Below, one piece after another: positions 33,975 through 54,879 of a stretch of DNA of 64,000 bases. Each line of letters opens with the position of its first letter. The stretch's first letter is position 1. Origin of the DNA: Zopfochytrium polystomum (taxonomy: Eukaryota; Chytridiomycota; Chytridiomycetes; Chytridiales; Chytridiaceae); the NCBI GenBank assembly GCA_025765615.1, contig JAIVFJ010000006.1:186001-250000 (forward strand). Direction: 5' to 3'. The position numbers were made by a program, and so were the translations under genes. The notes below the pieces were generated by a model, which saw nothing but the letters and a program-made list of their open reading frames with translations, ran no database searches and was not told where the DNA came from.

Positions 33975-35705
33975 GTATGCGATGAGCGTTGAACTGTCGC
34001 CGTTGGGCTTGCTTGCTTGCTCGCGCCTTTCTTCTTCTTCTTCTTCTTCGTCGTCGTCTTGTTGTGCGGAGGGGACAGGTTGGGAAAGGCAGGGGGGTGG
34101 GTGGCGCAATTGGGCGGTGTGAATGTATGCGTGTGTGTGTGTGTTTGTCGCTTATCGCCCAAAGCAGAGTGCCTCCATCGAGGAAGAAAAAAAAAAAAAA
34201 ACAAAGGAAAAAACCGGAAAGAAAATTCCGGAAACACACCAATCGAAACCGACAACGCGCGAGCCCTGCCGCAACTGCGCCGCCGCCGCCCGAATCCGGG
34301 GTCCAATCGGGCCAATCAATCGCCGTGAACCAACCACGGTCTGCGGCGCGTGCTGGCGACATTGAAGAAACCCCTTGGGTCACGAATATTAGTGAGACAT
34401 GAGAGAGCCACCGTCCAAGTATTGCTGTTTGTGATGGGCAATTGTCAGATCCTGACCATTGACAGACTTTCCCCTTCCCCCCCATCACTGCACCCAACTG
34501 CTCCAGCGCGAGACGACATTACTCGGCCCAACGGGAATACGCGAGTAAAGACAGCACTTCAAAATGTTCTCCATCCCTTCCTTGAACGCTACACGAAGCA
34601 CAATTCCCCCTCCCGTCCAACACTGCGAACAGATCAACCTCTTATTTTTTTATTTTTCTTTTTTTTCCCCCTTTCATTGTTGTGGTGATTTCCGCACGAA
34701 ACGCATGGATGCCCCCGACGTGTGGGTGGTCATCATCCCAGGGACTTGACTGAGAGGGCAGCGGCGAGCAGTTCGACTACCTGCAATCGGGAGGAAAGAG
34801 GTTGGAGGTGGGAGCAATCGGGAGTTCAATGAAAGGAAAACTGAAATTCACCCAGGGCCTAGTACGTATCATATCCACCACAAACCCCATGCCCTACAAA
34901 CTTTGGCAGACCTTGCCAATCACAAAGCGCTGAGATATGACTCAAGCAGAACATCTTGAAGCGCATCAACAATAACTTCGCATCGAAGTTGGCCAACCAT
35001 AAGAGCAGTTACTCTTTGAACTTCAGCACTCTTAATTCGTATTACGCCTCAGTCAGTCAGATTAGGGAAGCATATCAATCAAGCTTGTCGGAATTTTTGC
35101 ATTTATTAATATCTCCTCTGAGAAAAAATGTACCTCTTATCTCGTCCGCAAAGGAATTTCAAATTTAACATTACGGCCGACCTCTACCAACTCGAAGAAG
35201 AATCGAAGCAAATGGATGATGTTGTGCAGACAGCCGCCGCTGCGGAAGAGAAGAACGTAGTGTATTTGGCACACTTTTTGTCCAAGTATGTGACGTTCGT
35301 AGACGGGGAAGGGGTTACAGCCAAGATGGAATTACTTGACACGCTGATGGTAGATCAGCCCAAAAGAAGCTCAGGAGAATGTCGAATCTGACAATGTTTG
35401 ACTTTGGCGACACGATGTATCGCTCCGAGCGAAGCGAATGTCTGTTAATGGACTGCACATTTCTCGAACACGTAAACTTTCAAGAGTTCAGTGTGCCTAC
35501 TTGCTTAGGAAGCAAAACAAGTTCGACAACGAGCTTCCTTAGGTGCCTCAGCCAAGCTTGAGCAAAGCACGTGAATGCGAAATTAAACTGGAAGTCAGCT
35601 TGCCGGCATTGCGTAATCGAGCTTAGCCAGCTAGCTGACATAGCAAGTTGGTAATCATCTGATTTAAGATTCTTTATTCCTTTCCTTTCAGAATTCCGCG
35701 CACTC
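33975..35705. other. Intergenic, with an unrecognised coding-like stretch
   Basis: Between about 34956 and 35560 (+) several short frames show protein-like composition (ASVSQIREAYQSSLSEFLHL; then VVYLAHFLSKYVTFVDGEGV). They could be pieces of one decayed gene, but frames and splice sites do not join convincingly and no family is recognised. The rest is simple sequence. The 3' end of Rpt6 also lies here. Confidence 0.35.
35673..35678 (-). terminator. AATAAA polyadenylation signal of Rpt6
   Basis: AATAAA on the minus strand 28 nt beyond the Rpt6 stop codon (35708-35706). Confidence 0.55.
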
Positions 35706-37258: not shown

Positions 37259-38215
37259 TTTCGTGCCTTTTTTCTTGGGGGACGCGCAATCCCTTCCCCT
37301 CACGTAGCCTTGTCAGTGAATCAAGACACCAAGAGGTAGAACGACCAGTAACAACAGTAAATAACCCAAAAAATCAAAGAGAAAACAAGAAGCATTCAAA
37401 CAGATCCAACAAGGCTGCTACTGTAAACAGTCTACTCTGAGTGAGTGAGGGGAAGGAGTGAATGAAGTGGAGATGTGTGTTTGTGGGTGGTCCTTCTCCC
37501 CAACTTTGAGAGAAAGAGAAAAAACTCTGTTTGAATAATTGATACATAATGATGATATGCATGCTGTAATAGTTGCTAGGCAAGTGTGACTGGCACAGGG
37601 GAAAAACCTCTCCTATATTATCTGCTTGAGCAGAGGAGGAGGAAAACTGTTAACACCAGGTTTCTGTTCCACTTAATACTCAGAGTATTTGTCAACAGCA
37701 CAAGCCAGTGCCCAGGTCTGCATTGGCAGTGGCTGGCTCTCCCATGGGCATTGTTAGAACAATAACTGACAGTCACAATAGGTTTGGGTCTGTCTTGTGC
37801 CCCTTGCTGCTAACCAGCCAGTTACGCCTAACACCCTCGATTTGAGAGGGACAGATTACTCAAGTGCGAGAAATTGCCTACATTTGCAGTACCAATGTTG
37901 TAGCTGGAGTTGAACCAGTGCCATATCTCATGACGTATGTGAGACTATACTCACTCCTTTGATCCTGGGGTCTGGGCCTTAGAGTGAGGGAAAGCAAATA
38001 ATAGGCTAAAACTATCTTTATTGGCTGTTGTCTAGGGGGTGTTTCAACCCTACTACTTGCCTAGTCCATGAAGTATCCCTACTGATCTGTCTAACAGGGG
38101 TCTCCAACACAAAGAATGAACATTCAGAGGAACAATTCTCTGAAGGATCGGTGCAGGAGCACTGATTACTTGCATGGCTGCAGACCAGTGCGAGGGGAAA
38201 CAGAAGGGCACTCCT
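37259..38215. other. Repeat-derived spacer before the retrotransposon
   Basis: Contains an about 85-bp block (37424-37508) with GTAAACAGTCTACTCTGAGT through GGTGGTCCTTCTCCCCAACT that recurs at 42185-42265, and a minus-strand tRNA-like module (listed separately). No protein-coding frame is supported. The base composition matches the repeat-rich region, not the genes. Confidence 0.5.
37890..37957 (-). repeat. tRNA-like module on the minus strand
   Basis: Read on the minus strand: GTGAG-TATAGT-CTCAC gives a D-arm-like hairpin, and CTGG-TTCAACT-CCAG gives a well-paired T arm with a canonical B box (GGTTCAACTCC). The acceptor stem cannot be closed, so it is a tRNA-derived relic or SINE head. Confidence 0.45.
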
Positions 38216-38324
38216 TGTCAGGAACAGGGCAGGACAGGACAAGGCAGACAAGGAACTGAGAGGAGTGATGATTGTATTGGAAACAATAATTCACCTGAGG
38301 GATGGGACAGGTCCCCCATCCCCC

Positions 38325-38331
38325 TTTTATA
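38325..38331 (-). promoter_or_regulatory. TATA box of the LTR promoter (example in LTR A)
   Basis: TATAAAA on the minus strand, conserved in every LTR copy in the window. The self-primer sequence AGGTGAATTAT begins about 35 nt downstream, the usual TATA-to-start distance. Upstream on the coding strand lie the heat-shock elements. Confidence 0.75.
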
Positions 38332-38365
38332 CCCTTTGAGAGTCTTCCTTGTCTCAAGACTCAAA

Positions 38366-38378
38366 GAAAGTTCCAGAA
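38366..38378. promoter_or_regulatory. Proximal heat-shock element in LTR A
   Basis: GAAagTTCcaGAA: three perfect GAA/TTC units in alternating orientation at 5-bp spacing, about 35 bp upstream (coding strand) of the LTR TATA box. It fits the heat-shock-factor consensus of at least three nGAAn units. Conserved in all LTR copies seen. Confidence 0.65.
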
Positions 38379-38448
38379 AGAGCAATTAGTAATACAATGA
38401 TACCAATGATACCAATGACAACAAGACAAGTCAGGAAAGCAAAGGAGG

Positions 38449-38510
38449 TTCCAGAAGGTTCCAGAAGGTTCCATGAAGGAATGTTCTAGAAGGTTCCAGA
38501 GGTTTCCAGA
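38449..38510. promoter_or_regulatory. Distal heat-shock-element cluster in LTR A
   Basis: TTCcaGAAggTTCcaGAAgg followed by TTC gives five perfect units in a row (38449-38471). Further TTC/GAA units at 38484-38496 (TTCtaGAAggTTC) complete the cluster. It lies in U3, upstream of the TATA box on the coding strand. Confidence 0.65.
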
Positions 38511-38525
38511 GGGTGATTCATAACA

Positions 38526-38540
38526 TCATCTCCCCCTTTT
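38526..38540 (-). other. Polypurine tract and pol stop codon of element 1
   Basis: Coding strand AAAAGGGGGAGATGA ends exactly at the 3' LTR. Its last three bases are the pol stop codon TGA, so the reading frame runs to the last base before the LTR and the tract itself encodes the K-R-G-R end of the protein. Confidence 0.8.
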
Positions 38541-40121
38541 AGGCCTCTTCTGCAACTTGGTGGGGTACCTGGTCTTGAACTTGAGCAGAAGGTCTTGGCA
38601 GTGAGTGAGGTTTGACTCAGGTTCCCAGGTGTTGTCAGCATCTGAGTAACCTTTCCACTTAACAAGGAACTTGAGCGTCCTTCCAAACCACTTGGCATCC
38701 AAGATTTGTTCAACCTCAAATTCCTCTTCACCTTCTACCTCAACTGGAGGAGGAGGAGGAACAACTCTGCCTGGAATGGAATTGGCCACAAACTTCTCCA
38801 AAAGGCTGACATGGGAAACTGGGTGGATCTTCATGGATGCAGGGAGATCCAGCTTGAAGGTGACTGGATTGATTTGCTCCAAGATCTTGAAAGGTCCCAA
38901 CTTGAGGTTGTCTAGCTTGGGACTTGGTCTTTTGGTCTGCAAGTTCTTCCTCATGCCTGGCCAGTAAAAGTCTCTGGAAACAAGCTCATATGTCTTGTGC
39001 TCTCCTGGGTGTCCAGCTGTTGCTGCATCATGCCTTGTCTTGAGTATCTCAAGTTTTTCCTCTTCTTGGCTGATTTGAATCTTGTGAGGCTTGGGGTCCT
39101 TGGAAATAGCATGGGCCCACACACGGTCAGGAAGCAGTGAAAGGTGTGTCTTGGATTGTGGGGTGAAACCATCTCCCCCTTCAGGTGCAAGGTCTGTCCT
39201 TCTGTGCTCATCAGCAGTGGGGCTTGAATTGTTGACTGGGAACTGTGATTCTTGAATCTTTGACTGAGGGTTCTGTTCTTGGCAAAGGCTGTGAGCTGTG
39301 GAGCTTGAATCTTGAATTTGGACTGTGAACTGTGGTACTTGAATCTTTGACTGTGGGTTCTGTGAACTACAGACTTGGCCATGACTGTGAGCTCTATGAG
39401 CTGTACTGGAATCTTGACTATGAACTGTGAACTGTGAAACTTGAATCTTTGCTGGGATCTGTGAGCTGCAGGCTGATACTGGAGCTGTCATTTGTGGTTG
39501 ACCTTGGATACTAGGCTGAGAACCTTGAATCAGGGACTTGAGAGCATGAGACTTGGAGGCTTGACTTGAGTTTTGGGTGCCTGTTCCAATTGGTGGAGGT
39601 TGGACTTGACCAGTGACCCAATCAATGTCAGGGTTCTGGGCTTGCAGCCATGGTAATCCCAGGATGACAGAGAATGTGGGTGAGCCAAGATCCAATACTT
39701 CCAGGTTGACCATGGATGGTGGAAAGTCTTGGATGTGGAGGTTTAGCTTGGTTTCATGGCTGATTTCCTTGAACAGAGCATGATTGGCAAAGTGGACCTT
39801 GAGGGGTGTGGATTTCTTGATGGTGGGAATGGCACAAGACTTGGCAAGGGTGGCATCAATGATGTTGCAGGATGATCCAGAGTCGATAAGGGCCTTGGTT
39901 GTGATGGTTGACTTGGGTGAGAGTTGAATCTTCACATCCATGGTGAGTTGGTGGGGCTTGGAATCTGAGGTGTTTGTGGTGCTGGTGGTGGTGATGAAAC
40001 AGGGGCAGCTTGGAGGAGGGTCCAGGGAATTGCCCCTCAGTGAGCCTGGACCTGGGAGTTTGGGTGCTTCTTCCTTGGGCAGTCCTTGACAGCATGATCC
40101 TTGGAGCCACAGTAGAAACAC
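38526..40121 (-). pseudogene. Protease-integrase tail fusion frame of element 1
   Basis: Open frame of about 530 codons with no ATG at its 5' end, so it would need frameshifting from Gag. It holds an aspartic protease active site (ALIDSGSSCNIID) in a retropepsin domain, a Ser/Gln/Thr-rich linker with many short repeats, and the zinc-binding N-terminus of integrase (HDAATAGHPGEHKTYELVSR, DFYWPGMRK). It then passes in frame directly to NLQTKRPSPKLDNLKLGPF, the integrase tail, and a chromodomain (FEVEQILDAKWFGRTLKFLV, KWKGYSDADNTWEPESNL). RT, RNase H and the DDE core are deleted. The second deletion joins at an 8-nt shared word, CTTCCTCA. Keeping the frame across both losses is notable. Confidence 0.85.
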
Positions 40122-40519
40122 AGTCCCTGCTGGGCCCTCCTTGTTTTCTCCTCTTGGCTCAGAGGACCCTTAGGAAGTGTCTCAACTGCATCCACTTTCA
40201 TGGGTTCAGGAACTGTAAGAGCTTGAGGGACTGGGGTAGGTCTTGATGTAGTTCCTACTTGTCTTTGCTTCAGCCTCTTGGGGTAGAGTCTGTTGTCAAT
40301 CTTGATGGCAAGGAGAATGTACTCTTCCAAGGTCTCAGAAATGTGCAGAGACTGGGAGAGCATGTCTTGGATAGACTCATGGAGACCATCATGGTACAGC
40401 TCCATCAGAGCTGCATCATTGTATCCAGAGTCTCTGGCTAGTTGCTTGAATTGGTTGGTGTAGGCCACACAAGATGCTTTCCTTGCTTGATATGCTTGAG
40501 CTTGGATCTTGCTGTCCAA
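40037..40519 (-). pseudogene. Gag C-terminal half with zinc knuckle, element 1
   Basis: Frame holding the second half of Gag (NQFKQLARDSGYNDAALMEL) and one CCHC zinc knuckle (CFYCGSKDHAVKDC), which binds genomic RNA in the particle. It is one frame off from the upstream Gag start and overlaps the protease frame by 85 nt. The first shift looks like a disabling indel within Gag; the second sits where Gag-Pol frameshifts normally occur and could be programmed. Confidence 0.75.
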
Positions 40520-40959
40520 GATGCGTAGTGGTCACCAAAGGTAGCTTCCAGCCCCTCCCAGAGCTCTTGCAGGGTGGTGGGTGTGCTTGGGAGAGATCTG
40601 TACCATGATTGAGCTTGACCAGACAGGAGGGTGCTTGTGAAAAGAACCTTGACTTGCTCACTGGGAAATCTTGAAGGTTGGAGAAGGATGACATTCTCCA
40701 CAGTGGCCATAAAGTTCCTAAGGTCTTTGGCCAGCCCAGTGAACTTGTCAGGGCTGGGAACCTTGGGCTCTCTTGCTTGGTTGGCTTGGGGCAGGGGAAG
40801 AGCTTGATGTTCTTGTTGGTGAAGGTGTTGTTGAAGCTGGTGCTGCTGGTGAAGGACTTGTTCTTGAAGTTGGTGTGTCTGTCTTGAAAGGGCTTGTAAT
40901 TGGTCCATCAAGGCTTGGAAGGCAGTTGCATCAGGGAAGGTGTTGTTTGGGTCAGACAT
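40438..40959 (-). pseudogene. Gag N-terminal part, element 1
   Basis: Starts at the ATG 40959 (MSDPNNTFPD), 40 nt inside the 5' LTR. A Gln/His-rich coiled region (LHQQHQLQQHLHQQEHQ) precedes a typical Ty3-type capsid stretch (FPSEQVKVLFTSTLLSGQAQ, WYRSLPSTPTTLQELWEGLE, FGDHYA). The frame then departs from Gag, and the continuation is found in another frame from about 40519, implying a 1-base indel near 40520. Confidence 0.8.
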
Positions 40960-40987
40960 GATGGCAGAGAGTAGTGGGAGAGGGTGA

Positions 40988-40999
40988 AGTGAATTATGA
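40988..40999 (-). other. Primer-binding site of element 1 (candidate self-priming)
   Basis: Immediately inside the 5' LTR the coding strand reads TCATAATTCACTTC. It does not begin with TGG, as tRNA-primed sites do. ATAATTCACTT is the reverse complement of AAGTGAATTAT, which matches the LTR sequence about 35 nt after the TATA box (AGGTGAATTAT in this copy, one G-U wobble). This is the arrangement known for Tf1, where the RNA 5' end primes reverse transcription. Confidence 0.6.
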
Positions 41000-41309
41000 T
41001 GTCAGGAACAGGGCAGGACAGGACAAGGCAGACAAGGAACTGAGAGGAGTGATGATTGTATTGGAAACAATAATTCACCTGAGGGATGGGACAGGTCCCC
41101 CATCCCCCTTTTATACCCTTTGAGAGTCTTCCTTGTCTCAAGACTCAAAGAAAGTTCCAGAAAGAGCAATTAGTAATACAATGATACCAATGATACCAAT
41201 GACAACAAGACAAGTCAGGAAAGCAAAGGAGGTTCCAGAAGGTTCCAGAAGGTTCCATGAAGGAATGTTCTAGAAGGTTCCAGAGGTTTCCAGAGGGTGA
41301 TTCATAACA
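41000..41309 (-). repeat. LTR B (5' LTR of element 1)
   Basis: 310 bp; by eye the same sequence as LTR A along its whole length, including heat-shock elements and TATA box. Followed by the target duplication CTCCT. Confidence 0.93.
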
Positions 41310-42283
41310 CTCCTGAGGGTGCAACACAACCACAGAATAAAGAGAGGGAAGAGGGAAACAGGGGTTTTTATCACAGGAACCTAATCTCAAATGCAACAGG
41401 AGCAGTTAATAGCAACAGGACAGACAGGGCGCAACCTAGCGCCCCTCGTCACAGACAGTGCTGCAGGAGCCCTTGTCGTCGCCAGCAATGAGGGGGAGAG
41501 AGAGAAGGGACTTGCACGCGAAACACCAACAATCGTACACGCACCCCACCAGGCTGTGTTGGCACAATCACTCAACCAACAGGCAGGCACTCGTAGATCA
41601 AACTCTTAGGTTTCAGGGGCCGCACAGATCGCAGCCGCCAAAACCCTTGCAGGGATGTTGATGCTGCCATCATCACCTCTGCAGTGGGTGAGTGCCTGTG
41701 ATCCTCACTCCAACACAGAGCAAGCAGTGTCATGCCATCACGAGAGGGCCAACAACATTCCCCCTGTGCCGCCTTAAAGAGGGGCCTCACTAAGATATGA
41801 CATACTCACCTGGGTGTGTACCACCTCTCACTACGCTCACCTCATGAGCTAGATGGATTTGACGGATTCTGTATTGGTGCTGAAGGACAGAAATCAGATT
41901 GAAGAAAAAAGGAAAAGAGAAATGGCCCAAAAACAGAGAGAGAGAAAATTGGCAAGTCAACCCCCTGACTTGGAGCATCCACCACAAATGCTCTAAGTCC
42001 CCCAACCCTATGCGTGTATGTACAAGTGCTGAAAATAAATAATAAATTAGGTGGGTGGGGTGTCGGGCACCCCCTCCTTGGGCAGTCTCTGTTAGTCACC
42101 GAAAAAGAAAATATATTGAGAAAACCCTGGTGCAACAGAAATGGTTAAGACGAAAGTAGTAAAAGCAGGCCCAATAATAAAGATGTAAACAGTCTACTCT
42201 GAGTGAGTGAGTGGAAGGAGGGGAGATGTGTGTTTGTGGGTGGTCCTTCTCCCCAACTTGGAGAGATAAAATCATCAGAGAAG
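41310..42283. other. Repeat-derived spacer between element 1 and the copia remnant
   Basis: No gene supported. The left end continues the pre-insertion sequence interrupted by element 1. The block 42185-42265 repeats the 37424-37508 sequence. Its position next to the copia pol fragment suggests it may be copia LTR or other old repeat DNA; ends not determined. Confidence 0.4.
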
Positions 42284-43130
42284 TTAATAAATCAGAATTA
42301 AGAGATTGAAGCTTACGTCACTGCAGACAACGCCAGGAAAGACATGCTCATGCAAGTTATGGTGGCGTGTCCGAAGAATGGTCTGTGCAGTAAAGTCGTA
42401 GGACTCGCTGTCTGTGTCGAAACCCAAGAAGAGTCCAAGTGAGGCCCGAGGAGAGAACTTGGTCTTGTGTGAGTTTGCAGATTCTGTATACTCATTGTTG
42501 AGTGTGACAATGAGGCAGCCAAAAATTCCAAGGTGGCGTAGGTTGGGTTTTCGGCCTTGGTAATATTCAAATGGAATTCGACCAGTGCAAGTGTGTTGCA
42601 CATGATTGCACAGGAATGAAGCATGGCATATTGCGTAGGACCAGAAGAACTGCAGAAGCTGAGCCTCGATCAGGAGACAGGAAGCAATGTGGGTGATGAC
42701 CTTGATGGCATTTTCTGCAACACCATCACCCTCCTTGACATAAGGGACAGAAGGCTGAAAGATGATGGGAGGTTGGTGGTTGATACAGTAGGCCTCAAAT
42801 TGCTGAGTATTAAGACTGAGGTTGTCTGCCTGTGCAAATAGTGCTTGCCGAGTGGGGAAGAGTTGCTCTTCAAAATCAATGCAATCAATTATCCTTTGAG
42901 TGACGCCTGCTGTGCGAGCGACAGTGTTGACCCAAGCATAGCCTGTGGCGTAGTTGACAATAACTTCAAAGTAGTTGGAACCATCAAGAGAACGTGTACT
43001 GATCTTTCCAGTTTGGTCAGAACATAGCATCTGCAGTGGGGCAATATCAAAACGAGGTTTGGCCATGAGGTGTTGCCGGCGCATCTTTGCCATATCGCAA
43101 ATGAGGCAAGGCTCGCATGTTGTTGGTGGC

Positions 43131-43528
43131 TGTCAGGAACATGGCAGGACAGGGCAAGGCAGACAAGGAACTGAGAGGAGTGATGATTGTATTGGAAACA
43201 ATAATTCACTTGAGGGATGGGACAGGTCCCCCATCCCCCTTTTATACCTTTTGAGAGTCTTCCTTGTCAAGACTCAAAGAAAGTTCCAGAAAGAGCAATT
43301 AGTAATACAATGATACCAATGATACCAATGACAACAAGACAAGTCAGGAAAGCAAAGAAGGTTCCAGAAGGTTCCACAAGGTTCCATGAAGGAATGTTCT
43401 AGAAGGTTCCAGAAGGTTCCAGAATGTTCCATGAAGGAATGTTCTAGAATGTTCCAGAAGGTTCCAGAAGGTTCCATGAAGGAATGTTCTAGAAGGTTCC
43501 AGAGGTTTCCAGAGGGTGATTCATAACA
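43131..43528 (-). repeat. Solo LTR C with target-site duplication
   Basis: 398 bp, TGTCAGGAAC to CATAACA, flanked by GTGGC on both sides (43126-43130 and 43529-43533). It interrupts the copia integrase frame. It is about 88 bp longer than LTRs A/B because the TTCcaGAAgg cluster is extended by a second copy. A solo LTR normally forms by recombination between the two LTRs of a full insertion. Confidence 0.9.
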
Positions 43529-44420
43529 GTGGCGGAGCAGGAGCACTGTCGACATCACCAGACTTGAGAGTGTCACGTACTTGCTCTCAGTGGATGTGGC
43601 CAAAACATCAGTGCCATAGGTCGCGTGCAGTTGCTGGTGATGTGCTGGTGATGCGAAGGCAATGGGCTCAACTGAAATTTTCCTCTGCACAGCTGGGTGC
43701 TGGACTGGGATGAGATAGTAAAGGCTGTCACGTTGTTCGCCAATCTTGATGCTGTGTTGTGATGCGAGTGTAGCAAGATCAAGAAGAAAGACAGAATCTT
43801 GAGTGAATAGCATCCCAGCAGTTGGGTCTTGGAGGACATGCGACACAGAGAGGAGCAGTTCCTTGAGTGATGGGACATGAAGCACATTGTGGAGCACCTC
43901 ATCAAAACCAGAAAAACGGAGCACCACATCAAACAGAAAAAGTGAGAGTGACAGATCCAATTCCTTTGATGCAGCATTCATGGTCATCTGCTAGGCGGGC
44001 ATGGTGTTTGGTTTCAAATCGTTGGTACTCAGTGAATTGTTCCCGTTGTGGGATCATTGTGGAAGAGAGGCTATGCCTGTGTGTGACACGCTCACTGTTG
44101 CAGTGTTCACAAAGAAGTAGAAGCAAGAGGGACTGTTTATTTGAGAAGAAGAAGAAACAGATGGCCCTCCTGTAGCAGGTTGAGGGTGAAATCCAGAGAA
44201 AGGAACAAGAGTTGCTTGCGGTACAGCCACAGTGTGTGTGCATTGGTGGCCAAGCTTGGAATCTCCGCACAGAACTCGCACCCAGTGCCTTCAACTCTTC
44301 CAAGACGTTGATGGATTGACGTAGCCTTTGGCTCCAGCCTATGGGTGACTCCTGGCTTGCGGCCGTCACAACAGTCCCTTTCCATGTGGTGAACATATGC
44401 CTTGTGGTAACCACACCAGT

Positions 44421-44728
44421 TGTCAGGAACAGGGCAGGACAGGACAAGGCAGACAAGGAACTGAGAGGAGTGATGATTGTATTGGAAACAATAATTCACT
44501 TGAGGGATGGGACAGGTCCCCCATCCCCCTTTTATACCTTTTGAGAGTCTTCCTTGTCAAGACTCAAAGAAAGTTCCAGAAAGAGCAATTAGTAATACAA
44601 TGATACCAATGATACCAATGACAACAAGACAAGTCAGGAAAGCAAAGAAGGTTCCAGAAGGTTCCACAAGGTTCCATGAAGGAATGTTCTAGAAGGTTCC
44701 AGAGGTTTCCAGAGGGTGATTCATAACA
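44421..44728 (-). repeat. LTR D, lone copy without visible target duplication
   Basis: 308 bp, complete ends (TGTCAGGAAC to CATAACA), lying within the copia Gag region. Flanks are CCAGT on the left and TTGGA on the right, so no 5-bp duplication is seen. This fits recombination with another copy, or flank loss, rather than a simple solo LTR. Confidence 0.85.
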
Positions 44729-44833: not shown

Positions 44834-46261
44834 CCATTTTCAAAGTTGTTGTGACAGTGATGGGAGGTGATGGCATGCAACTGTGTACAAGACTTGGAGT
44901 TTCTGGCCTAGCCCACCAAACGTCTCAGGAGAGTGCCCTATCAGAAAGATAACCTCCTGCTTGGTGACCAAGTTTCACTCAAATGTTTGTCTCTCAGTCT
45001 CTCTTCTAAATAGCTCATTTCAAATGGTCCTATTAGATTCAAGTGGGATTGGACTTGAAACCAAGTCATTTCCGTTTGGGAAGCAAGTCGGGCTTGATTT
45101 GGTCTCAATCAGTTCCCCAAAGTTTTAGAGACATTGCTGTAATTTTCCAGCGAAAATCCAATTGATCCTGGCACACACAATATCGGACTCCTCTTGTGAG
45201 GCCTGCCTGTATCGCGGTCCAACTACATTTCTTCGTTCATATTTTTTTCAACCAAGCACGACAGTCAATTAAAAATACATTTTTTTCTATTTTTTTTGGT
45301 AGATTGCCCAAAGTGCCAGAGGGGTGGCTGAGAATAAAATGCCCCAAATCCATGGCAAAACGAAGATTAAAAAGGCAAAAAAGTAATTTCCCTGACAATT
45401 GTTATCACAGCGCGACGATATCGCCCTTATGAGCAAGGTGACAGGGAATGGAACTGCAAACTTCTTTCGTTTCAGTCAGGTTCCTAACCCTCAGTAAAGG
45501 TTTCATCTATAAAGATACAATAGCATCTCCGCAAATCTTAAAAATACAAATCTGCCAAAAACGCAAATATCTCCAATCATCTGAGGATTATTGCCCAAAA
45601 GATCCCTATTTAGTTCCGTTCCAAAATCTTGAGGCGCCGGAGCGCTTGAAAGTGGAAACAGAGTTGTTCGAACACATAATGATTGTAGCTGCGCCAACAT
45701 CTTCATTGCTATCTTTGTCCTTGCAAGCAACAAGAGGCGGCGTTGGAAAGGAAATGGAGTTGGATATATGAGTGACTGGCTTGAGAACTGCAGGAGCAGA
45801 GGCTGAAGGGGTTGCTGCAGAGGAAATATATATCTTTGGCTTGACAACAACAACAGCAACAAACAACAAAAAAACGTCAGAAGCATCAAGCTGCGGCACT
45901 GCGACGGCAGCAACAGCTCCAAAATCCAGCGAGACAGCAGCAGCAACAGCAGTCCAACAGCCCAGTGACCTCATCAACTGCACCTGCATGCATGCGCCCT
46001 TGCCCTCTTTCCGTCACCCGGAACGTCATCGCTTCCTTTCCTCCTTTCGCATATTTAATATTTGTAAATAGTAATATGCACATCGAACTTTTGTCTCCAG
46101 TGCTCTGTGCTGTTTTCGGAGCGGGAGAAATTGCGGAGCTGCGTGTGACCATGCAATTTTTTTTTATTTTTTTATTTTTTTTTTTTGTTTGGAACAAACC
46201 CAGAACAAAATTTCTGCAATTGTTAATAAAGATAACAACAAAACGCAACAGCCGCCAAGAA
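44834..46261. other. Intergenic, with one end of a fold-back repeat family
   Basis: 45110-45139 carries CCCAAAGTTTTAGAGACATT followed by GCTGT, closely similar to the terminal repeat of the fold-back element at 54880-55795. The rest is A/T-rich with short frames on both strands that match nothing known. The promoter of the Vps62-like gene lies at the right end. Confidence 0.5.
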
Positions 46262-47991
46262 ATGCCACCGCGTCCTGCTGCTGCTGCTGCTGCCGCGCTC
46301 GTCGCCGCCGCCGCTGCTCTTGCTGCGCATAATGCGGTCCTCGTTCTCGGCGCGCCCGCTCCATCCCCGGCCTCCGCCCCCGGCCCCGCCGCCCAAGGCC
46401 ACCAACACAACCACCACCAAAGCGGGGAAGGCGGCCCCTCCTTCTTGACGCGGCGCGACGCGGCGAGCCCCGCCCACGCCGCCCTCGCCGCGCAGTTCGC
46501 GCCGCTCATCGTCTACCACCCGGACGAAAAGTACTTTGCGTCGTCCGTCGACTACATGTTCCCGCACTACACGCTGATCAACGCTGACGGCTCGGCCGTG
46601 GCCAACGCGCCGTCGCCGCTGACAGCCCAGAACCTCGACTTCCTGAACGAGGCCGGCACCGACGCAAGTGGGACGTACCTTGCAGTCAGCGGCTCGCCCG
46701 CCGGCGACCCCAACGTGCCGTCCGGGTTCGAGTACCTGTACTCGGACGTCAGCACCGGAACGACGGCTCCCATCTACGCCTTTGTCGTGCCAAAGGACAA
46801 CTCGGTCATTGATATTTTCTACTGTAGGTGGTCGTGTTTCCCAACCATTTTGTGCTGGGCTCCGCCAATCGAAGATTTGCTTATTTACTCTGGCACACAC
46901 ACACGCACACACACACACACACACACGCACACAACTCCTCGGCACCGACCAACACCAACAACGCGCACTGGATTGGCCTGTTATGTAGGGATGTTCACAC
47001 CATACAAGTGAGTGTTGTTGAATATCTCCCTCCTCCACCCTTTGTGTTGCTGATCGAAAACTGACCAATAAAATACAAACTCAACAGCCTTGGGAAAAAC
47101 ATCATCCTGCTAGGCTACGTCGGCGACCACGTGGGCGACTGGGAACACATTGTGGTGCGCACCGTCAACGGAAACGCCGTCTCGGTCGACTTCTCCGCGC
47201 ACTCGTCCGGCTCCGGCCTGGGCACGCTCTCCGTCGCCGACTCGCGCCTCGCGTGGTCCGGCTCGCACCCTGTCGGCTACACTGCGCTCGGCTCGCACGG
47301 CATCTGGCCGCAGACCGGCTCCAACACGTACAAGACCATCGCGGGCATCTACAAGCTGACGGACGAGACGGGCAACGGCGCGCAGTGGGAGACGTGGAAC
47401 AACGTCTACGCGGTCGACTACCTCCGCGGCGGTGGGTACACGGGCGCGCAGGCGTGGCTCAACTACAACGGCCACTTTGGCAACCCCGGCGACACGTCGT
47501 GCTGGTTCTACAGCCTGGTCGGCGAGTGCAAGTTCTCGGAGGGCCCGGACCACCCGAACCGCGACATGACGGGCCCGCCCGCGCAGGTGCTCGCCGCGCC
47601 GAACGCGGCCGACCCGGACCACTCTGTATACGCGTTCTGGCTGTCGGCGCCCGCGCAGCAGTTTGCCGCCGCCAACGCCGCGACGTACAAGTTCGTCGGC
47701 GTGCACCAGCACTGCGGCGCGTCCAGCTCTGGCCACGAGACCGACAACTGGGGGTGGGTCCCCGTCGTCGCGTCGTCTGACCCCGTAAAGTATTCGGTCA
47801 CCACCGACAGGTGCAAGAAGGACTACTCGCGCTACGCCGCAGAGTACGAGGTCATGTTCTGCGCCGACCAGACGTCCAACAGCTGCTCGTTTTCCGGGTA
47901 CCGCCAAATCCGCCAGTACAGCGGGTCCAGCGTTGTCCAGGAGAAGGGCATCGTGCTCGACGACCCGGACTACTGGTACTGGAGCTACTGA
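46262..47991 (+). CDS. Vps62-family protein (secreted or vacuolar)
   Basis: Exons 46262-46823, 46989-47007 and 47088-47991 give 494 residues. The middle exon is only 19 nt; it supplies W-M-F-T-P-Y between ...IDIFY and NLGKNIILLGY, restoring the conserved family order, and all phases fit. An Ala-rich hydrophobic N-terminus (AALVAAAAALAAHNAVLVLG) is a probable signal sequence. Family signatures: QFAPLIVYHPDEKYFASSVD, VGDHVGDWEHIVVR, AYGSHG-like LGSHGIWP, and WLNYNGHFGNPG. Cysteines are frequent in the C-terminal half. In yeast, Vps62 is linked to vacuolar protein sorting; molecular function is not established. The first intron carries a (CA)n tract. GC-rich, unlike the retrotransposons on both sides, and intact. 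Confidence 0.88.
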
Positions 47992-49199
47992 TGTTGCCGG
48001 CGCTTCGCATAGACACTGTTACATTTTCTATTTGTCAGTAACCCTGAGGAGGGTTTTCCGTGTTTATGATTTTTGCCGTCTCGCCTCAGGTGGTCTCAGA
48101 TTTTTGCATTTGGAAGAACAAACTTAGAAAGACTATAGGCCCAACTGCCGCGAAGGCTCTTCTGCAAAGTGGATAACATAAGTGCGGTTAAATGTTCGAA
48201 TGAAGCTGCTGGCTTGTAGGAGGTAGGAAATTGAAGAGGTGCACCTAGAGACGACAACAATCAAATCAGCGGTTTCCGTGGGTTTTGCGGCAATGCAAGT
48301 CCACTTGGAAAAAAAATTGGCTGCTAGCAAAGGTTGCAACTGAAAGTTTCCTAATCGGCCGGAATCTTCGAATGTTGAAAGCTAAATGTCGGCCTTGCAT
48401 TGCTAGAAGGTACATTAGCATCATTGACGTTATAATTTTATGGCCCGTACTGTCGTCTCCTCTTGCGTCAGAAGCGGGTCGCGGCCAGATGCGTACACGC
48501 CTCGGGCGGCAGCAATTTAGTCAAAATCCCTCTACGCATACAGCGCGTGCACATGTTGGTTCCTTTACTCTTCGACAAAAAATAGAAGCAGAGTGTCGTC
48601 GGCCGTGGGTTCACCCCCTTGCTTTGTTGGAAAGCAACAGTGCTCAATTCGTGCAAAACGAGTGAATCGAAAATTTTCAACAGTTTTGCCCAGCCATGTT
48701 CACTTTCAAACGTTGTGAAAGGGTGTCAAAATTCAGCCTTGGTTCAAGTTTGGATGACAGCTGTTGGGGAACAAGAATCGGATTCAAGCTGATAGGATTT
48801 CTGTCGAAGGTTTGATTCGCCGGGATGTTCTGTGGATTTTGATGCTTCTAGGCTCTGCCTCGAAAAGTTGCCTTGGTAGATTTCTCCAAGAGAATGGCCC
48901 TACACTTCCGAGCGCAGGCCTGCAATAAAAATGCTTCCTTCACGGCGAAGTGCAATATCTGCTTTTTTCGTGCTGTCAATTCCAAAGTCCCCAGCCGTCG
49001 ACTTGTGGAAAACATTCAACGGTCAGATTGCATATTTTTGGTTCCATTTGTTCTTTCAAAGGGTGAGATCCACCAGCATCAGCAGAAAGATGAAGCAGTT
49101 TTAACAGCCAATGTGGTATAGTGATTCAAAACAGCACTAAGCTGCATAAAAATATGTCGATGAACTTTACATTGAGCTCAGGTGTTTTCAGCTTGAAAA
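47992..49199. other. Intergenic stretch before the LTR array
   Basis: No gene supported. A/T-moderate sequence with frames under 130 codons on both strands, none recognisable. GGTTTGATTCGCC near 48809 resembles a Pol III B box but has no A box at the right distance. Confidence 0.45.
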
Positions 49200-49596
49200 T
49201 GTCAGGAACATGGCAGGACAGCAAGGCAGACAAGGAACTGAGAGGAGTGATGATTGTATTGGAACCAATAATTCACTTGAGGGATGCGACAGGTCCCCCC
49301 ATCCCCCTTTTATACCTTTTGAGAGTCTTCCTTGTCAAGACTCAAAGAAAGTTCCAGAAAGAGCAATTAGTAATACAATGATACCAATGATACCAATGAC
49401 AACAAGACAAGTCAGGAAAACAAAGAAGGTTCCAGAAGGTTCCACAAGGTTCCATGAAGGAATGTTCTAGAAGGTTCCAGAAGGTTCCAGAAGGTTTCAT
49501 GAAGGAATGTTCTAGAATGTTCCAGAAGGTTCCAGAAGGTTCCATGAAGGAATGTTCTAGAAGGTTCCAGAGGTTCCCAGAGGGTGATTCATAACA
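49200..49596 (-). repeat. LTR E (array, outermost left)
   Basis: 397 bp with the long heat-shock cluster. It has private differences from F/G near its left end (CATGGCAGGACAGCAAGGC; GGAACCAATAATTC), so it is not just another copy of the repeat unit. Confidence 0.9.
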
Positions 49597-50799
49597 TCAT
49601 CTCCCCCTTTTAGGCCTCTTCTGCAACTTGGTGGGGTACCTGGTCTTGAACTTGAGCAGAAGGTCTTGGCAGTGAGTGAGGTTTGACTCAGGTTCCCAGG
49701 TGTTGTCAGCATCTGAGTAACCTTTCCACTTAACAAGGAACTTGAGTGTCCTTCCAAACCACTTGGCACCCAAGATTTGTTCAACCTCAAATTCCTCTTC
49801 ACCTTCTACCTCAACTGGAGGAGGAGGAGGAACAACTCTGCCTGGAATGGAATTGGCCACAAACTTCTCCAAAAGGCTGACATGGAAAACTGGGTGGATC
49901 TTCATGGATGCAGGGAGATCCAGCTTGAAGGTGACTGGATTGATTTGCTCCAAGATCTTGAAAGGTCCCAACTTGAGGTTGTCTAGCTTGGGACTTGGTC
50001 TTTTGGTCTGCAAGTTCTTCCTCAGAAGCCAAACTTGCTGACCCACAGCAAGGTCATGGTCCATTCTGTGAGTGTTGGCGAATCTTGAGGCATCTTCTTG
50101 GGCTTGCTTCAGGGTGGAGTCCAGGAAGGTGCTGATGATCTTGAGCTTATGCAAGTGTGAAGCCACAGCAGGAGCTTGGACATTGGATAGGGTCTCTTGT
50201 CCCAGAAGATCTCCTCTTGGATTGAAGCCATAGGTTGCAAAGAAAGGAGATAGCTGGGAGCTTGAGTGGAGAGAATTGTTGAGAGCAAATTCTGCCAGCA
50301 GAAGGAGGGTGGGCCAATCATCCTGTTGATAGCTGACATAACACCTCAAATACTGCTCCAGAGTCTGGTTTGTTCTTTCTGTTTGTCCATCAGTCTGACG
50401 GTGATAAGCAGTTGACAGTTGAGACTTGATTCCAAGGGCTGCTGTGAGTGCTTTCCAAAATTGAGATCTGAACTGAGGTCCTCTGTCACTGATGATTGAC
50501 TGAGGCAGCCCATGGAGCCTGAATATGTGCTGCAAAAACAGGTCTACTGTTCCTTGTGCATCTATATTCTCAGTGCAAGGGATGAAATGGGCCAACTTTG
50601 TCCTTCTGCAGATGACAACAAGGATAGAGTCAAATCCATGGGATGGGGGCATTTTCACAATGAAGTCCATGGATATTGATGACCAAGGGCTGATGGCAAT
50701 TGGGAGGGGCTCCAGAAGTCCATAGGGCTTGTGTCTGCTGGATTTGTTTCTTTGACAGGTTTCACAGCTGCTGACATAGTTCTTGATGTACTTCCTCAT
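49597..50799 (-). CDS. Integrase-chromodomain protein, array unit 1
   Basis: From the first ATG (50799) 400 residues; the open frame extends upstream to 50856 into inverted LTR sequence without an ATG. Contains the C-x2-C of the integrase zinc domain (SSCETCQRNK) and the DDE core: D in SISMDFIVKMP, D in IISDRGPQFRSQF, E in QTERTNQTLEQYL. A GPF-type tail (LKLGPFKILEQINPVTFKL) and a chromodomain (VEQILGAKWFGRTLKFLVKW, SDADNTWEPESNL) follow. The paired His of the zinc domain are cut off upstream. Catalytic residues look intact, but without Gag and RT the unit cannot move alone. The stop codon abuts the LTR, as in element 1. Confidence 0.85.
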   Translation of the reverse strand: MRKYIKNYVSSCETCQRNKSSRHKPYGLLEPLPIAISPWSSISMDFIVKMPPSHGFDSILVVICRRTKLAHFIPCTENIDAQGTVDLFLQHIFRLHGLPQSIISDRGPQFRSQFWKALTAALGIKSQLSTAYHRQTDGQTERTNQTLEQYLRCYVSYQQDDWPTLLLLAEFALNNSLHSSSQLSPFFATYGFNPRGDLLGQETLSNVQAPAVASHLHKLKIISTFLDSTLKQAQEDASRFANTHRMDHDLAVGQQVWLLRKNLQTKRPSPKLDNLKLGPFKILEQINPVTFKLDLPASMKIHPVFHVSLLEKFVANSIPGRVVPPPPPVEVEGEEEFEVEQILGAKWFGRTLKFLVKWKGYSDADNTWEPESNLTHCQDLLLKFKTRYPTKLQKRPKRGR

Positions 50800-50820
50800 G
50801 CCTGGCCAGTAGAAGTCTCT

Positions 50821-50920
50821 ATTGCTCTTTCTGGAACTTTCTTTGAGTCTTGACAAGGAAGACTCTCAAAAGGTATAAAAGGGGGATGGGGGGACCTGTC
50901 CCATCTCTCAAGTGAATTAT
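50821..50920 (+). repeat. Inverted LTR-promoter segment, array unit 1
   Basis: About 100 bp that is the near-exact reverse complement of 50993-51092 in LTR F, differing at a few sites such as CTCTCAAG against CCCTCAAG. It includes the heat-shock element TTCtgGAActTTC (50829-50841), the TATA box (50874-50880) and the R start, now pointing along the plus strand. It sits at the primer-binding-site end of the internal region and forms a long hairpin with the adjacent LTR. Confidence 0.85.
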
Positions 50921-50922
50921 GA

Positions 50923-51321
50923 TGTCAGGAACAGGGCAGGACAGGACAAGGCAGACAAGGAACTGAGAGGAGTTATGATTGTATTGGAAACAATAATTCA
51001 CTTGAGGGATGGGACAGGTCCCCCCATCCCCCTTTTATACCTTTTGAGAGTCTTCCTTGTCAAGACTCAAAGAAAGTTCCAGAAAGAGCAATTAGTAATA
51101 CAATGATACCAATGATACCAATGACAACAAGACAAGTCAGGAAAACAAAGAAGGTTCCAGAAGGTTCCACAAGGTTCCATGAAGGAATGTTCTAGAAGGT
51201 TCCAGAAGGTTCCAGAAGGTTTCATGAAGGAATGTTCTAGAATGTTCCAGAAGGTTCCAGAAGGTTCCATGAAGGAATGTTCTAGAAGGTTCCAGAGGTT
51301 CCCAGAGGGTGATTCATAACA
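50923..51321 (-). repeat. LTR F (array)
   Basis: 399 bp, long heat-shock-element form, TGTCAGGAAC to CATAACA; repeated at LTR G with a 1725-bp offset. Confidence 0.9.
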
Positions 51322-52524
51322 TCATCTCCCCCTTTTAGGCCTCTTCTGCAACTTGGTGGGGTACCTGGTCTTGAACTTGAGCAGAAGGTCTTGGCAGTGA
51401 GTGAGGTTTGACTCAGGTTCCCAGGTGTTGTCAGCATCTGAGTAACCTTTCCACTTAACAAGGAACTTGAGTGTCCTTCCAAACCACTTGGCACCCAAGA
51501 TTTGTTCAACCTCAAATTCCTCTTCACCTTCTACCTCAACTGGAGGAGGAGGAGGAACAACTCTGCCTGGAATGGAATTGGCCACAAACTTCTCCAAAAG
51601 GCTGACATGGAAAACTGGGTGGATCTTCATGGATGCAGGGAGATCCAGCTTGAAGGTGACTGGATTGATTTGCTCCAAGATCTTGAAAGGTCCCAACTTG
51701 AGGTTGTCTAGCTTGGGACTTGGTCTTTTGGTCTGCAAGTTCTTCCTCAGAAGCCAAACTTGCTGACCCACAGCAAGGTCATGGTCCATTCTGTGAGTGT
51801 TGGCGAATCTTGAGGCATCTTCTTGGGCTTGCTTCAGGGTGGAGTCCAGGAAGGTGCTGATGATCTTGAGCTTATGCAAGTGTGAAGCCACAGCAGGAGC
51901 TTGGACATTGGATAGGGTCTCTTGTCCCAGAAGATCTCCTCTTGGATTGAAGCCATAGGTTGCAAAGAAAGGAGATAGCTGGGAGCTTGAGTGGAGAGAA
52001 TTGTTGAGAGCAAATTCTGCCAGCAGAAGGAGGGTGGGCCAATCATCCTGTTGATAGCTGACATAACACCTCAAATACTGCTCCAGAGTCTGGTTTGTTC
52101 TTTCTGTTTGTCCATCAGTCTGACGGTGATAAGCAGTTGACAGTTGAGACTTGATTCCAAGGGCTGCTGTGAGTGCTTTCCAAAATTGAGATCTGAACTG
52201 AGGTCCTCTGTCACTGATGATTGACTGAGGCAGCCCATGGAGCCTGAATATGTGCTGCAAAAACAGGTCTACTGTTCCTTGTGCATCTATATTCTCAGTG
52301 CAAGGGATGAAATGGGCCAACTTTGTCCTTCTGCAGATGACAACAAGGATAGAGTCAAATCCATGGGATGGGGGCATTTTCACAATGAAGTCCATGGATA
52401 TTGATGACCAAGGGCTGATGGCAATTGGGAGGGGCTCCAGAAGTCCATAGGGCTTGTGTCTGCTGGATTTGTTTCTTTGACAGGTTTCACAGCTGCTGAC
52501 ATAGTTCTTGATGTACTTCCTCAT
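51322..52524 (-). CDS. Integrase-chromodomain protein, array unit 2
   Basis: Second copy of the 400-residue integrase-chromodomain frame, first ATG at 52524. The translation reads as identical to unit 1 and unit 3, with the same DDE residues and chromodomain. The inverted LTR segment lies at 52546-52645. Confidence 0.85.
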   Translation of the reverse strand: MRKYIKNYVSSCETCQRNKSSRHKPYGLLEPLPIAISPWSSISMDFIVKMPPSHGFDSILVVICRRTKLAHFIPCTENIDAQGTVDLFLQHIFRLHGLPQSIISDRGPQFRSQFWKALTAALGIKSQLSTAYHRQTDGQTERTNQTLEQYLRCYVSYQQDDWPTLLLLAEFALNNSLHSSSQLSPFFATYGFNPRGDLLGQETLSNVQAPAVASHLHKLKIISTFLDSTLKQAQEDASRFANTHRMDHDLAVGQQVWLLRKNLQTKRPSPKLDNLKLGPFKILEQINPVTFKLDLPASMKIHPVFHVSLLEKFVANSIPGRVVPPPPPVEVEGEEEFEVEQILGAKWFGRTLKFLVKWKGYSDADNTWEPESNLTHCQDLLLKFKTRYPTKLQKRPKRGR

Positions 52525-52647
52525 GCCTGGCCAGTAGAAGTCTCTATTGCTCTTTCTGGAACTTTCTTTGAGTCTTGACAAGGAAGACTCTCAAAAGGTA
52601 TAAAAGGGGGATGGGGGGACCTGTCCCATCTCTCAAGTGAATTATGA

Positions 52648-53046
52648 TGTCAGGAACAGGGCAGGACAGGACAAGGCAGACAAGGAACTGAGAGGAGTTA
52701 TGATTGTATTGGAAACAATAATTCACTTGAGGGATGGGACAGGTCCCCCCATCCCCCTTTTATACCTTTTGAGAGTCTTCCTTGTCAAGACTCAAAGAAA
52801 GTTCCAGAAAGAGCAATTAGTAATACAATGATACCAATGATACCAATGACAACAAGACAAGTCAGGAAAACAAAGAAGGTTCCAGAAGGTTCCACAAGGT
52901 TCCATGAAGGAATGTTCTAGAAGGTTCCAGAAGGTTCCAGAAGGTTTCATGAAGGAATGTTCTAGAATGTTCCAGAAGGTTCCAGAAGGTTCCATGAAGG
53001 AATGTTCTAGAAGGTTCCAGAGGTTCCCAGAGGGTGATTCATAACA
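52648..53046 (-). repeat. LTR G (array)
   Basis: 399 bp; reads as the same sequence as LTR F. Confidence 0.9.
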
Positions 53047-54249
53047 TCATCTCCCCCTTTTAGGCCTCTTCTGCAACTTGGTGGGGTACCTGGTCTTGAA
53101 CTTGAGCAGAAGGTCTTGGCAGTGAGTGAGGTTTGACTCAGGTTCCCAGGTGTTGTCAGCATCTGAGTAACCTTTCCACTTAACAAGGAACTTGAGTGTC
53201 CTTCCAAACCACTTGGCACCCAAGATTTGTTCAACCTCAAATTCCTCTTCACCTTCTACCTCAACTGGAGGAGGAGGAGGAACAACTCTGCCTGGAATGG
53301 AATTGGCCACAAACTTCTCCAAAAGGCTGACATGGAAAACTGGGTGGATCTTCATGGATGCAGGGAGATCCAGCTTGAAGGTGACTGGATTGATTTGCTC
53401 CAAGATCTTGAAAGGTCCCAACTTGAGGTTGTCTAGCTTGGGACTTGGTCTTTTGGTCTGCAAGTTCTTCCTCAGAAGCCAAACTTGCTGACCCACAGCA
53501 AGGTCATGGTCCATTCTGTGAGTGTTGGCGAATCTTGAGGCATCTTCTTGGGCTTGCTTCAGGGTGGAGTCCAGGAAGGTGCTGATGATCTTGAGCTTAT
53601 GCAAGTGTGAAGCCACAGCAGGAGCTTGGACATTGGATAGGGTCTCTTGTCCCAGAAGATCTCCTCTTGGATTGAAGCCATAGGTTGCAAAGAAAGGAGA
53701 TAGCTGGGAGCTTGAGTGGAGAGAATTGTTGAGAGCAAATTCTGCCAGCAGAAGGAGGGTGGGCCAATCATCCTGTTGATAGCTGACATAACACCTCAAA
53801 TACTGCTCCAGAGTCTGGTTTGTTCTTTCTGTTTGTCCATCAGTCTGACGGTGATAAGCAGTTGACAGTTGAGACTTGATTCCAAGGGCTGCTGTGAGTG
53901 CTTTCCAAAATTGAGATCTGAACTGAGGTCCTCTGTCACTGATGATTGACTGAGGCAGCCCATGGAGCCTGAATATGTGCTGCAAAAACAGGTCTACTGT
54001 TCCTTGTGCATCTATATTCTCAGTGCAAGGGATGAAATGGGCCAACTTTGTCCTTCTGCAGATGACAACAAGGATAGAGTCAAATCCATGGGATGGGGGC
54101 ATTTTCACAATGAAGTCCATGGATATTGATGACCAAGGGCTGATGGCAATTGGGAGGGGCTCCAGAAGTCCATAGGGCTTGTGTCTGCTGGATTTGTTTC
54201 TTTGACAGGTTTCACAGCTGCTGACATAGTTCTTGATGTACTTCCTCAT
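53047..54249 (-). CDS. Integrase-chromodomain protein, array unit 3
   Basis: Third copy, first ATG at 54249, same product as units 1 and 2. The inverted LTR segment lies at 54271-54370. This is the unit nearest the 5' end of the array on the coding strand. Confidence 0.85.
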   Translation of the reverse strand: MRKYIKNYVSSCETCQRNKSSRHKPYGLLEPLPIAISPWSSISMDFIVKMPPSHGFDSILVVICRRTKLAHFIPCTENIDAQGTVDLFLQHIFRLHGLPQSIISDRGPQFRSQFWKALTAALGIKSQLSTAYHRQTDGQTERTNQTLEQYLRCYVSYQQDDWPTLLLLAEFALNNSLHSSSQLSPFFATYGFNPRGDLLGQETLSNVQAPAVASHLHKLKIISTFLDSTLKQAQEDASRFANTHRMDHDLAVGQQVWLLRKNLQTKRPSPKLDNLKLGPFKILEQINPVTFKLDLPASMKIHPVFHVSLLEKFVANSIPGRVVPPPPPVEVEGEEEFEVEQILGAKWFGRTLKFLVKWKGYSDADNTWEPESNLTHCQDLLLKFKTRYPTKLQKRPKRGR

Positions 54250-54372
54250 GCCTGGCCAGTAGAAGTCTCTATTGCTCTTTCTGGAACTTTCTTTGAGTCT
54301 TGACAAGGAAGACTCTCAAAAGGTATAAAAGGGGGATGGGGGGACCTGTCCCATCTCTCAAGTGAATTATGA

Positions 54373-54681
54373 TGTCAGGAACAGGGCAGGACAGGACAAG
54401 GCAGACAAGGAACTGAGAGGAGTTATGATTGTATTGGAAACAATAATTCACTTGAGGGATGGGACAGGTCCCCCCATCCCCCTTTTATACCTTTTGAGAG
54501 TCTTCCTTGTCAAGACTCAAAGAAAGTTCCAGAAAGAGCAATTAGTAATACAATGATACCAATGATACCAATGACAACAAGACAAGTCAGGAAAACAAAG
54601 AAGGTTCCAGAAGGTTCCACAAGGTTCCATGAAGGAATGTTCTAGAAGGTTCCAGAAGGTTCCAGAAGGTGATTCATAACA
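54373..54681 (-). repeat. LTR H (array, 5'-most on the coding strand)
   Basis: 309 bp, the short form: about 90 bp of the TTCcaGAAgg cluster present in F and G is missing near its right end, just before GTGATTCATAACA. Followed by target duplication GAAAA. Confidence 0.9.
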
Positions 54682-54879
54682 GAAAAGGGACACTTCGGCG
54701 TTCCAGTGGAGCGATTTGCATTTCGCACACGTATGCGGCGGTTCGTCCTCAATCTCGTGCCTGTTGTAAGACAACCTGTCGTCGCTCCACTGTGACCCAG
54801 TACAAGAGTCCGCTCTCCAGTCGTTTCCGACTCGAGAGCGTATGCACCCGAGGCTCCAAGTCTTTTCATTCTGAGTCCT

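Follow-up and report, generated by a model that had tools for sequence, protein, structure and literature searches.

Perfect heat-shock element arrays in the LTRs of a chytrid chromovirus: a putative heat-inducible promoter

Do the long terminal repeats (LTRs) of a retrotransposon family in the chytrid Zopfochytrium polystomum act as heat-shock promoters, or do they carry the corresponding motif as a neutral repeat? The question arises from a genomic stretch of 64,000 nucleotides (called the window below), in which the original prediction had described TTC and GAA triplets that alternate with an exact 5-bp spacing in the U3 region of every LTR copy, and had matched them to the consensus for heat-shock factor (HSF).

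Heat-shock motif arrays in the window LTRs

All elements in the window lie in minus-strand orientation, and its eight LTRs are divided as follows: a deleted element has two, a tandem array has four, and the other two stand singly and apart. The features, as read from the sequence, are as follows.

38216..38525, minus strand: 3′ LTR of deleted element 1, heat-shock runs of 3+5+4 units
41000..41309, minus strand: 5′ LTR of deleted element 1, runs of 3+5+4
38366..38378 (same at 41150-41162), no strand assigned: promoter-proximal three-unit perfect heat-shock element of the 3′ LTR, 34 bp upstream of TATA
38449..38496, no strand assigned: distal heat-shock array of the 3′ LTR, runs of 5 and 4 units
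38325..38331, minus strand: TATA box (TATAAAA) of the 3′ LTR
38286..38296, minus strand: putative R start and mRNA 5′ end of the 3′ LTR, primer-site complement with one G-U
40987..40999, minus strand: primer-binding site TCATAATTCACTT adjoining the 5′ LTR, 13 letters shared by all 4 window junctions that were read
38526..38540, minus strand: polypurine tract AAAAGGGGGAGATGA adjoining the 3′ LTR
38211..38215, partner 41310-41314, no strand assigned: target-site duplication CTCCT of element 1
38526..40169, minus strand: ORF of element 1, 547 aa, aspartic protease, then integrase H2C2, Tf2-1 SH3 and chromodomain
43131..43528, minus strand: solo LTR with expanded array, runs of 3+4+8+8+4, 27 units
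43126-43130 and 43529-43533, no strand assigned: target-site duplication GTGGC of the solo LTR
44421..44728, minus strand: single LTR, runs of 3+4+4
49200..54681, minus strand: tandem insertion of four LTRs and three internal units, 1725-bp repeats
49200-49596, 50923-51321, 52648-53046 and 54373-54681, minus strand: LTRs of the tandem insertion
49195-49199 and 54682-54686, no strand assigned: duplication GAAAA, once around the whole tandem insertion
49597..50865 (repeated at 51322-52590 and 53047-54315), minus strand: 422-aa ORF of the tandem units, the first of the three scanned
50821..50920, 52546-52645 and 54271-54370, plus strand: inverted LTR pieces (three-unit element, TATA, R start) adjoining the primer site

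Perfect GAA/TTC runs at the 5-bp step were present in all eight window LTRs, at 11–27 units each and with a longest run of eight; the units contained in runs of at least three numbered 12, 12, 27, 11, 26, 26, 26 and 14 per LTR. The pattern thus holds for every copy, as had been claimed. In the LTR at 38216-38525, three units were found at 38366-38378 and five at 38449-38471, exactly where the original prediction had placed them, and a further run of four at 38479-38496 had escaped it. All but one of the 36 window runs of at least three units fell within an LTR or an inverted LTR piece, the sole run outside LTR sequence in the 64 kb lying at 34221-34233. Shuffling the window 60 times with dinucleotides preserved gave a mean of 1.2 runs with three or more units (maximum 5) and of 0.02 with four or more (maximum 1).

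A scan of LTR copies against shuffled controls gave 493 units in such runs among 38 non-redundant full-length LTRs, whereas 200 shuffled sets contained 1.07 on average and never more than 9. This sample, in which the eight window LTRs are included, consists mostly of close relatives of the window LTR, because 37 of its members are window LTRs or hits of a search that sorted candidates by similarity to a window LTR (40 of 122 scored); one copy (C1:27064) entered via a motif search. At least four adjacent units were found in 36 of the 38. The motifs therefore fit the HSF consensus far above chance, and a chance origin was ruled out by the shuffles together with the reversed-pattern controls described below.

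The arrays are tandem repeats with periods of 10, 35 and 45, that of the solo LTR at 43131-43528 having grown in 45-bp steps, and LTR length ranged from 297 to 398 nt in the 38-LTR sample. A second short tandem repeat, ATTGGTATC, is present in U3, from which we conclude that slippage is common there. These properties, together with a broken array unit in 20 of 30 aligned LTRs, would suit the main rival to a promoter function, a neutral minisatellite: the decamer TTCCAGAAGG would have arisen in U3, spread by slippage and recombination and been carried along by a successful element, with a functionless match to HSF sites. We consider this explanation unlikely, though by no means negligible. A chance decamer would rarely place GAA and TTC at exactly half its period, and the proximal three-unit site stands 65–70 bp apart from the array in the window copies.

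Element class and promoter layout

By its sequence, the element is a Ty3-type chromovirus of the Tf1/sushi type, and the class assigned by the original prediction is supported by the integrase, Tf2-1 SH3 and chromodomain. The domain scan of the 422-aa ORF, carried out on the first of the three repeats, detected part of integrase H2C2, the integrase core (rve, 1.4e-9), Tf2-1 SH3 (2.9e-19) and a chromodomain (Chromo, 4.6e-16), that is, an integrase with a C-terminal chromodomain as in Tf1/sushi chromoviruses. LTR ends of the TG...CA form and 5-bp duplications (CTCCT, GTGGC and GAAAA) were found at three of the four window insertions; no target-site duplication was seen at the flanks of the single LTR at 44421-44728. 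In the 547-aa ORF of element 1, the domain scan detected no RT, RNase H or integrase core, and from its sequence element 1 is a deletion derivative. A complete gag-pol with RT before integrase is absent from the window copies, since their interiors (2.5 kb and 1.3 kb) are too short, and LTR pairs lying ~4.5-5.3 kb apart suggest that longer copies exist elsewhere in the genome. The LTR pair of element 1 (38216-41309) is identical across the 309 nt compared, as is a pair on contig C611 (309/309), and a pair on C556 differs by 7 mismatches and 3 gaps; the identical pairs point to recent activity.

The window offers further observations on the history of these copies. The exact 1725-bp repeats enclosed in one GAAAA duplication may have arrived together as one tandem element, or have arisen by unequal exchange once an element had inserted. 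On the same contig (C6), five LTR hallmarks spaced at exact 3171-bp steps (359959-372673) suggest another tandem LTR array, built on an internal unit that differs from this one. The plus strand at 45845-47991 of the window carries open frames of a gene, and the two neighbouring minus-strand single LTRs point away from it.

In element orientation, the U3 of the window copies consists of the distal array, 65–70 bp of other U3 sequence and the three-unit site. In element 1, this site is followed after 34 bp, on the minus strand, by TATAAAA, where the original prediction had given ~35 bp, and a word of the AAGTGAATTAT type begins ~35 nt after the first base of TATA. TATAAAA is present in all 38 sampled LTRs. 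The last 11 letters of the primer site are the exact complement of AAGTGAATTAT, which occupies the R start in 28 of the 38 LTRs; seven, element 1 among them, carry AGGTGAATTAT, whose pairing with the primer site would leave one G-U, and three carry neither word. Tf1 is known to prime itself in this way, the RNA 5′ end pairing with the primer site; in the chytrid element the arrangement is seen as a match between sequences. By this arrangement, the R-start word probably marks the transcription start, independently of any guess about the promoter. The inverted LTR pieces next to the primer sites of the tandem units would fit plus-strand DNA copying that continued beyond the self-priming RNA 5′ end into a U3-started RNA, and may be a natural trace of self-priming.

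Genome-wide distribution, constancy and host sites

We scanned the 80.2-Mb assembly (761 contigs) for the four-unit perfect pattern TTCnnGAAnnTTCnnGAA, which occurred at 2281 places as compared with 15 for the backwards pattern; TTCnnGAAnnTTCnnGAA is its own reverse complement, and a long array contributes more than one count. The promoter hallmark, defined by the sequence flanking the three-unit site to left and right with at most two mismatches, was found at 2204 places, the inverted LTR pieces of the window included, and its reversed pattern at none. Among the places listed for contigs C1-C5, 26 four-unit clusters were distinguished, and 18 of them are LTRs of the chromovirus: 14 have an exact LTR hallmark no more than 400 bp away, one (L067) aligns to the LTR, and three were fetched and aligned at 86 to 100% identity. 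The remaining eight were placed by spacing alone, six in pairs 4.9 kb apart and two 2.8 kb apart, and are LTR-pair-like in this respect. When the first spacer of the four-unit pattern was made foreign to the family, 12 places were found (6 in the control), eight of which overlap an LTR alignment of 258-322 nt (L067, L069, L071, L072, L073, L075, L076 and L077). The other four are not LTRs: L070 and L078 are near-identical loci with the four-unit site inside an open frame; in L074 a longer open frame follows the site after ~240 bp; and L068 has a 51-nt LTR piece ~285 bp from it. The original prediction had weighed a minisatellite common elsewhere in the genome; within this sample none was found, 18 of the 26 clusters being LTRs and the non-LTR places few (4 of the 12 with a foreign spacer). 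On extrapolation from the C1-C5 sample and the low reversed-pattern background, the chromovirus family would hold the great majority of the 2281 four-unit sites.

Such numbers would also suit a sink role, in which the LTR arrays would chiefly draw HSF off host genes; the effect would then fall on the host and not on transcription of the element. This we regard as highly improbable, as silenced copies would not bind, even with ~2200 hallmark places and with most of the sampled four-unit sites belonging to one chromovirus.

The constancy of the proximal site bears on the neutral minisatellite from both sides. With exact flanks, the site was found at 1178 places; the nine core letters were intact in 1084 of them (92%), and core and four spacer letters together in 982. 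The genome-wide change per base was 0.92% in the core and 2.44% in the spacers, with related copies counted as independent, so that the binomial p of 5e-10 for this contrast is not a valid probability. Taken at face value, an intact core and more changeable spacers speak against a neutral repeat. The first 100 places listed showed the opposite, with 11 core changes and no spacer change, as a neutral repeat would allow. The variants are unevenly spread, because a changed spacer occurred in 2 of the first 100 core-intact places listed as against 102 of 1084 overall. In the 30 aligned LTRs, variable positions made up 6/36 of the core, 5/18 of the spacer, 29/139 of other U3 and 31/116 of the stretch from TATA to the end, a sample in which the core-spacer contrast is not clear. 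The evidence for selection on the motif, as far as these alignments and counts go, is mixed.

We then turn to the host. The genome contains 14 matches to the HSF domain, representing several distinct HSF-type domains, and all 12 fetched HSF loci, two of which overlap, encode SFVRQLNMYGFHKV, which we take to be the recognition-helix stretch of HSF. This diversity would be compatible with an HSF-family factor that binds the LTR and activates it constitutively or in development, for example in zoospores or sporangia, or via a protein with an HSF domain of the Skn7 or Sfl1 kind, and not in response to heat; the very dense arrays could bind HSF even at its basal level. We hold this to be rather improbable, the closest host site having been found at heat-shock protein genes.

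That site lies upstream of HSP20 genes. Two of these upstream regions (L080 and L082) contain GAATTGTCCAGAAGCTTCC and GAATTGTCCAGAAACTTCC, each with four units at 5-bp steps, one of them imperfect, and TATAAAA follows the four-unit site as it does in the LTR. The HSP20-derived pattern GAAnnGTCCAGAAnnTTCC occurred at 15 places genome-wide and its reversed control at none. Nine of the 15 precede an HSP20 match by 347-388 bp on the gene's strand, seven of them being independent because the other two had defined the pattern; four are the LTR spelling and two lie elsewhere. Exact GAAnnGTCCAGAAnnTTCC is absent beside five of the 12 strongest HSP20 matches (C1:203529, C133, C58, C256 and C260:8445). 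At C1:211596 and C283:76357, HSP20-type sites stand with no listed HSP20 match adjoining, and may belong to other HSF target genes or to unlisted HSP20 copies.

Other heat-shock genes were sparser in perfect sites. In an SSA-type HSP70 pair (L048/L049), the site is GAATGTTCTTGGAATGTTCC, in which one extra base puts two GAA-TTC pairs out of step. Over 640 residues, L048 is 100% identical to an HSP70 protein recorded for Z. polystomum. No perfect run of at least three units was present in the stretches fetched for 19 of 20 HSP70-match loci, several of which are exon fragments and one of which (L048) was covered for ~0.44 kb upstream; in the exception, L064, one three-unit run precedes by ~0.84 kb a match that is interrupted by two stops. 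Nor did ~0.7 kb upstream of one HSP90 gene or the upstream regions of three HSP20 genes, where one unit of the site is imperfect, contain any such run. Dense arrays as the normal host design were thus unsupported by the HSP70, HSP90 and HSP20 promoters read. In kind, the host sites appear canonical, and the words CCAGAA and TTCC are common to host sites and LTR; the LTR arrays are denser than every host promoter read here. For the neutral minisatellite, the related site at HSP20 genes is an unfavourable finding, and the lack of such arrays in the host promoters a favourable one. Groups of HSP70 loci on different contigs (L047, L050-L052 and L059-L062) start with the same residues, which may reflect separate haplotypes in the assembly or recent duplications, with copy counts possibly too high as a result.

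A putative heat-shock promoter and known systems

Taking both sides together, we consider it fairly probable that the LTR U3 is a heat-shock promoter and that HSF binding makes the chromovirus inducible by heat or other stress. Protein-folding stress would release the host HSF, whose trimers would bind the distal array and the TATA-proximal three-unit site; bound HSF would drive transcription from the start ~35 nt after TATA, and element RNA and new copies would be made mainly under heat or proteotoxic stress. Array length, varying by 10-bp and 45-bp steps, would tune HSF loading. The heat-shock promoter is favoured because the HSF consensus is far above shuffles and four-unit sites far above their control, because the proximal core is mostly intact and changes less per base than the spacer, because host HSF genes exist and a related site precedes HSP20 genes, because identical LTR pairs indicate recent activity, and because in Brassicaceae COPIA elements the strongest heat response accompanies four-unit elements. 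It is disfavoured because the host promoters read have no such arrays and some of the strongest HSP20 matches no site, because the core-spacer contrast counts kin copies and is reversed in the first places listed, and because most aligned LTRs carry a broken unit in a U3 where slippage is common.

A wider proposition is that the strongest HSF sites of the genome have been taken over by a single heat-activated chromovirus, most four-unit sites lying in its LTRs: heat would fire a network of LTR promoters, with bursts of transposition and competition for HSF with host chaperone genes, and array length would be selected as a volume control. We put this forward as a doubtful idea. Should the U3 indeed be a heat-shock promoter, stress-timed transposition would have evolved in a fungal lineage that branched off early, and heat-responsive promoters would have been spread across the genome with the LTRs. 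The chytrid would provide a clean test, with defined sites and many LTRs that are much alike and differ in array length; the identical LTR pairs, as signs of recent activity, and the HSP20 genes with a related site, as internal controls, would aid it.

A close counterpart is ONSEN/COPIA78 of Arabidopsis, for which HSF dependence and binding were demonstrated (PMC3907296). Like the chytrid element, ONSEN has an LTR with adjacent nGAAn units, which in ONSEN recruit host heat-shock factors, and the ONSEN-like feature of at least three adjacent units is found in all eight window LTRs and in all 38 sampled LTRs. ONSEN is a plant COPIA family with eight full-length copies in A. thaliana and a four-unit plus a gapped element (PMC3907296 and PMC5059998), whereas the chytrid element is a chromovirus with 11–27 units per window LTR, ~2200 hallmark places and a putative heat response. 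Among Brassicaceae COPIA elements, the strongest heat response is associated with four adjacent units (PMC5059998).

In fungi, the LTR retrotransposons TCN12 and TCN3 of Cryptococcus have putative LTR heat-shock elements and are mobilised at 37 °C, according to a 2026 paper, which also states that transposon activation by heat shock via host machinery was still undescribed in fungi (PMC12810828). TCN12 is reported to have one putative heat-shock element and TCN3 two, compared with 11–27 units per window LTR here, and their mobility was measured, whereas the chytrid element is described here from its sequence. A literature search, with most subscription papers outside its reach, found no report of heat-shock elements in a chytrid retrotransposon. 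MAGGY of Magnaporthe, which we take to be a Ty3 chromovirus, resembles the proposal for the chytrid element in being fungal and in its reported heat-shock activation. The title of Ikeda et al. 2001 describes MAGGY as activated by heat shock. DIRS-1 of Dictyostelium is reported to have terminal repeats with a heat-shock promoter and differs from the chytrid element in that its repeats are inverted. DIRS-1 is presumably a tyrosine-recombinase element. The fission yeast elements Tf1 and Tf2 resemble the chytrid element in the Tf2-1-type SH3 and chromodomain of the integrase, and Tf1/sushi chromoviruses share the 11-nt complementarity between R start and primer site; we know of no LTR heat-shock arrays in Tf1/Tf2. 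A heat-activated fungal element is not a new idea, as MAGGY, TCN12 and TCN3 precede this one, and ONSEN and DIRS-1 do so outside the fungi; new here are the chytrid host, the long expandable arrays, the copy number and a single family that apparently holds most of the four-unit sites.
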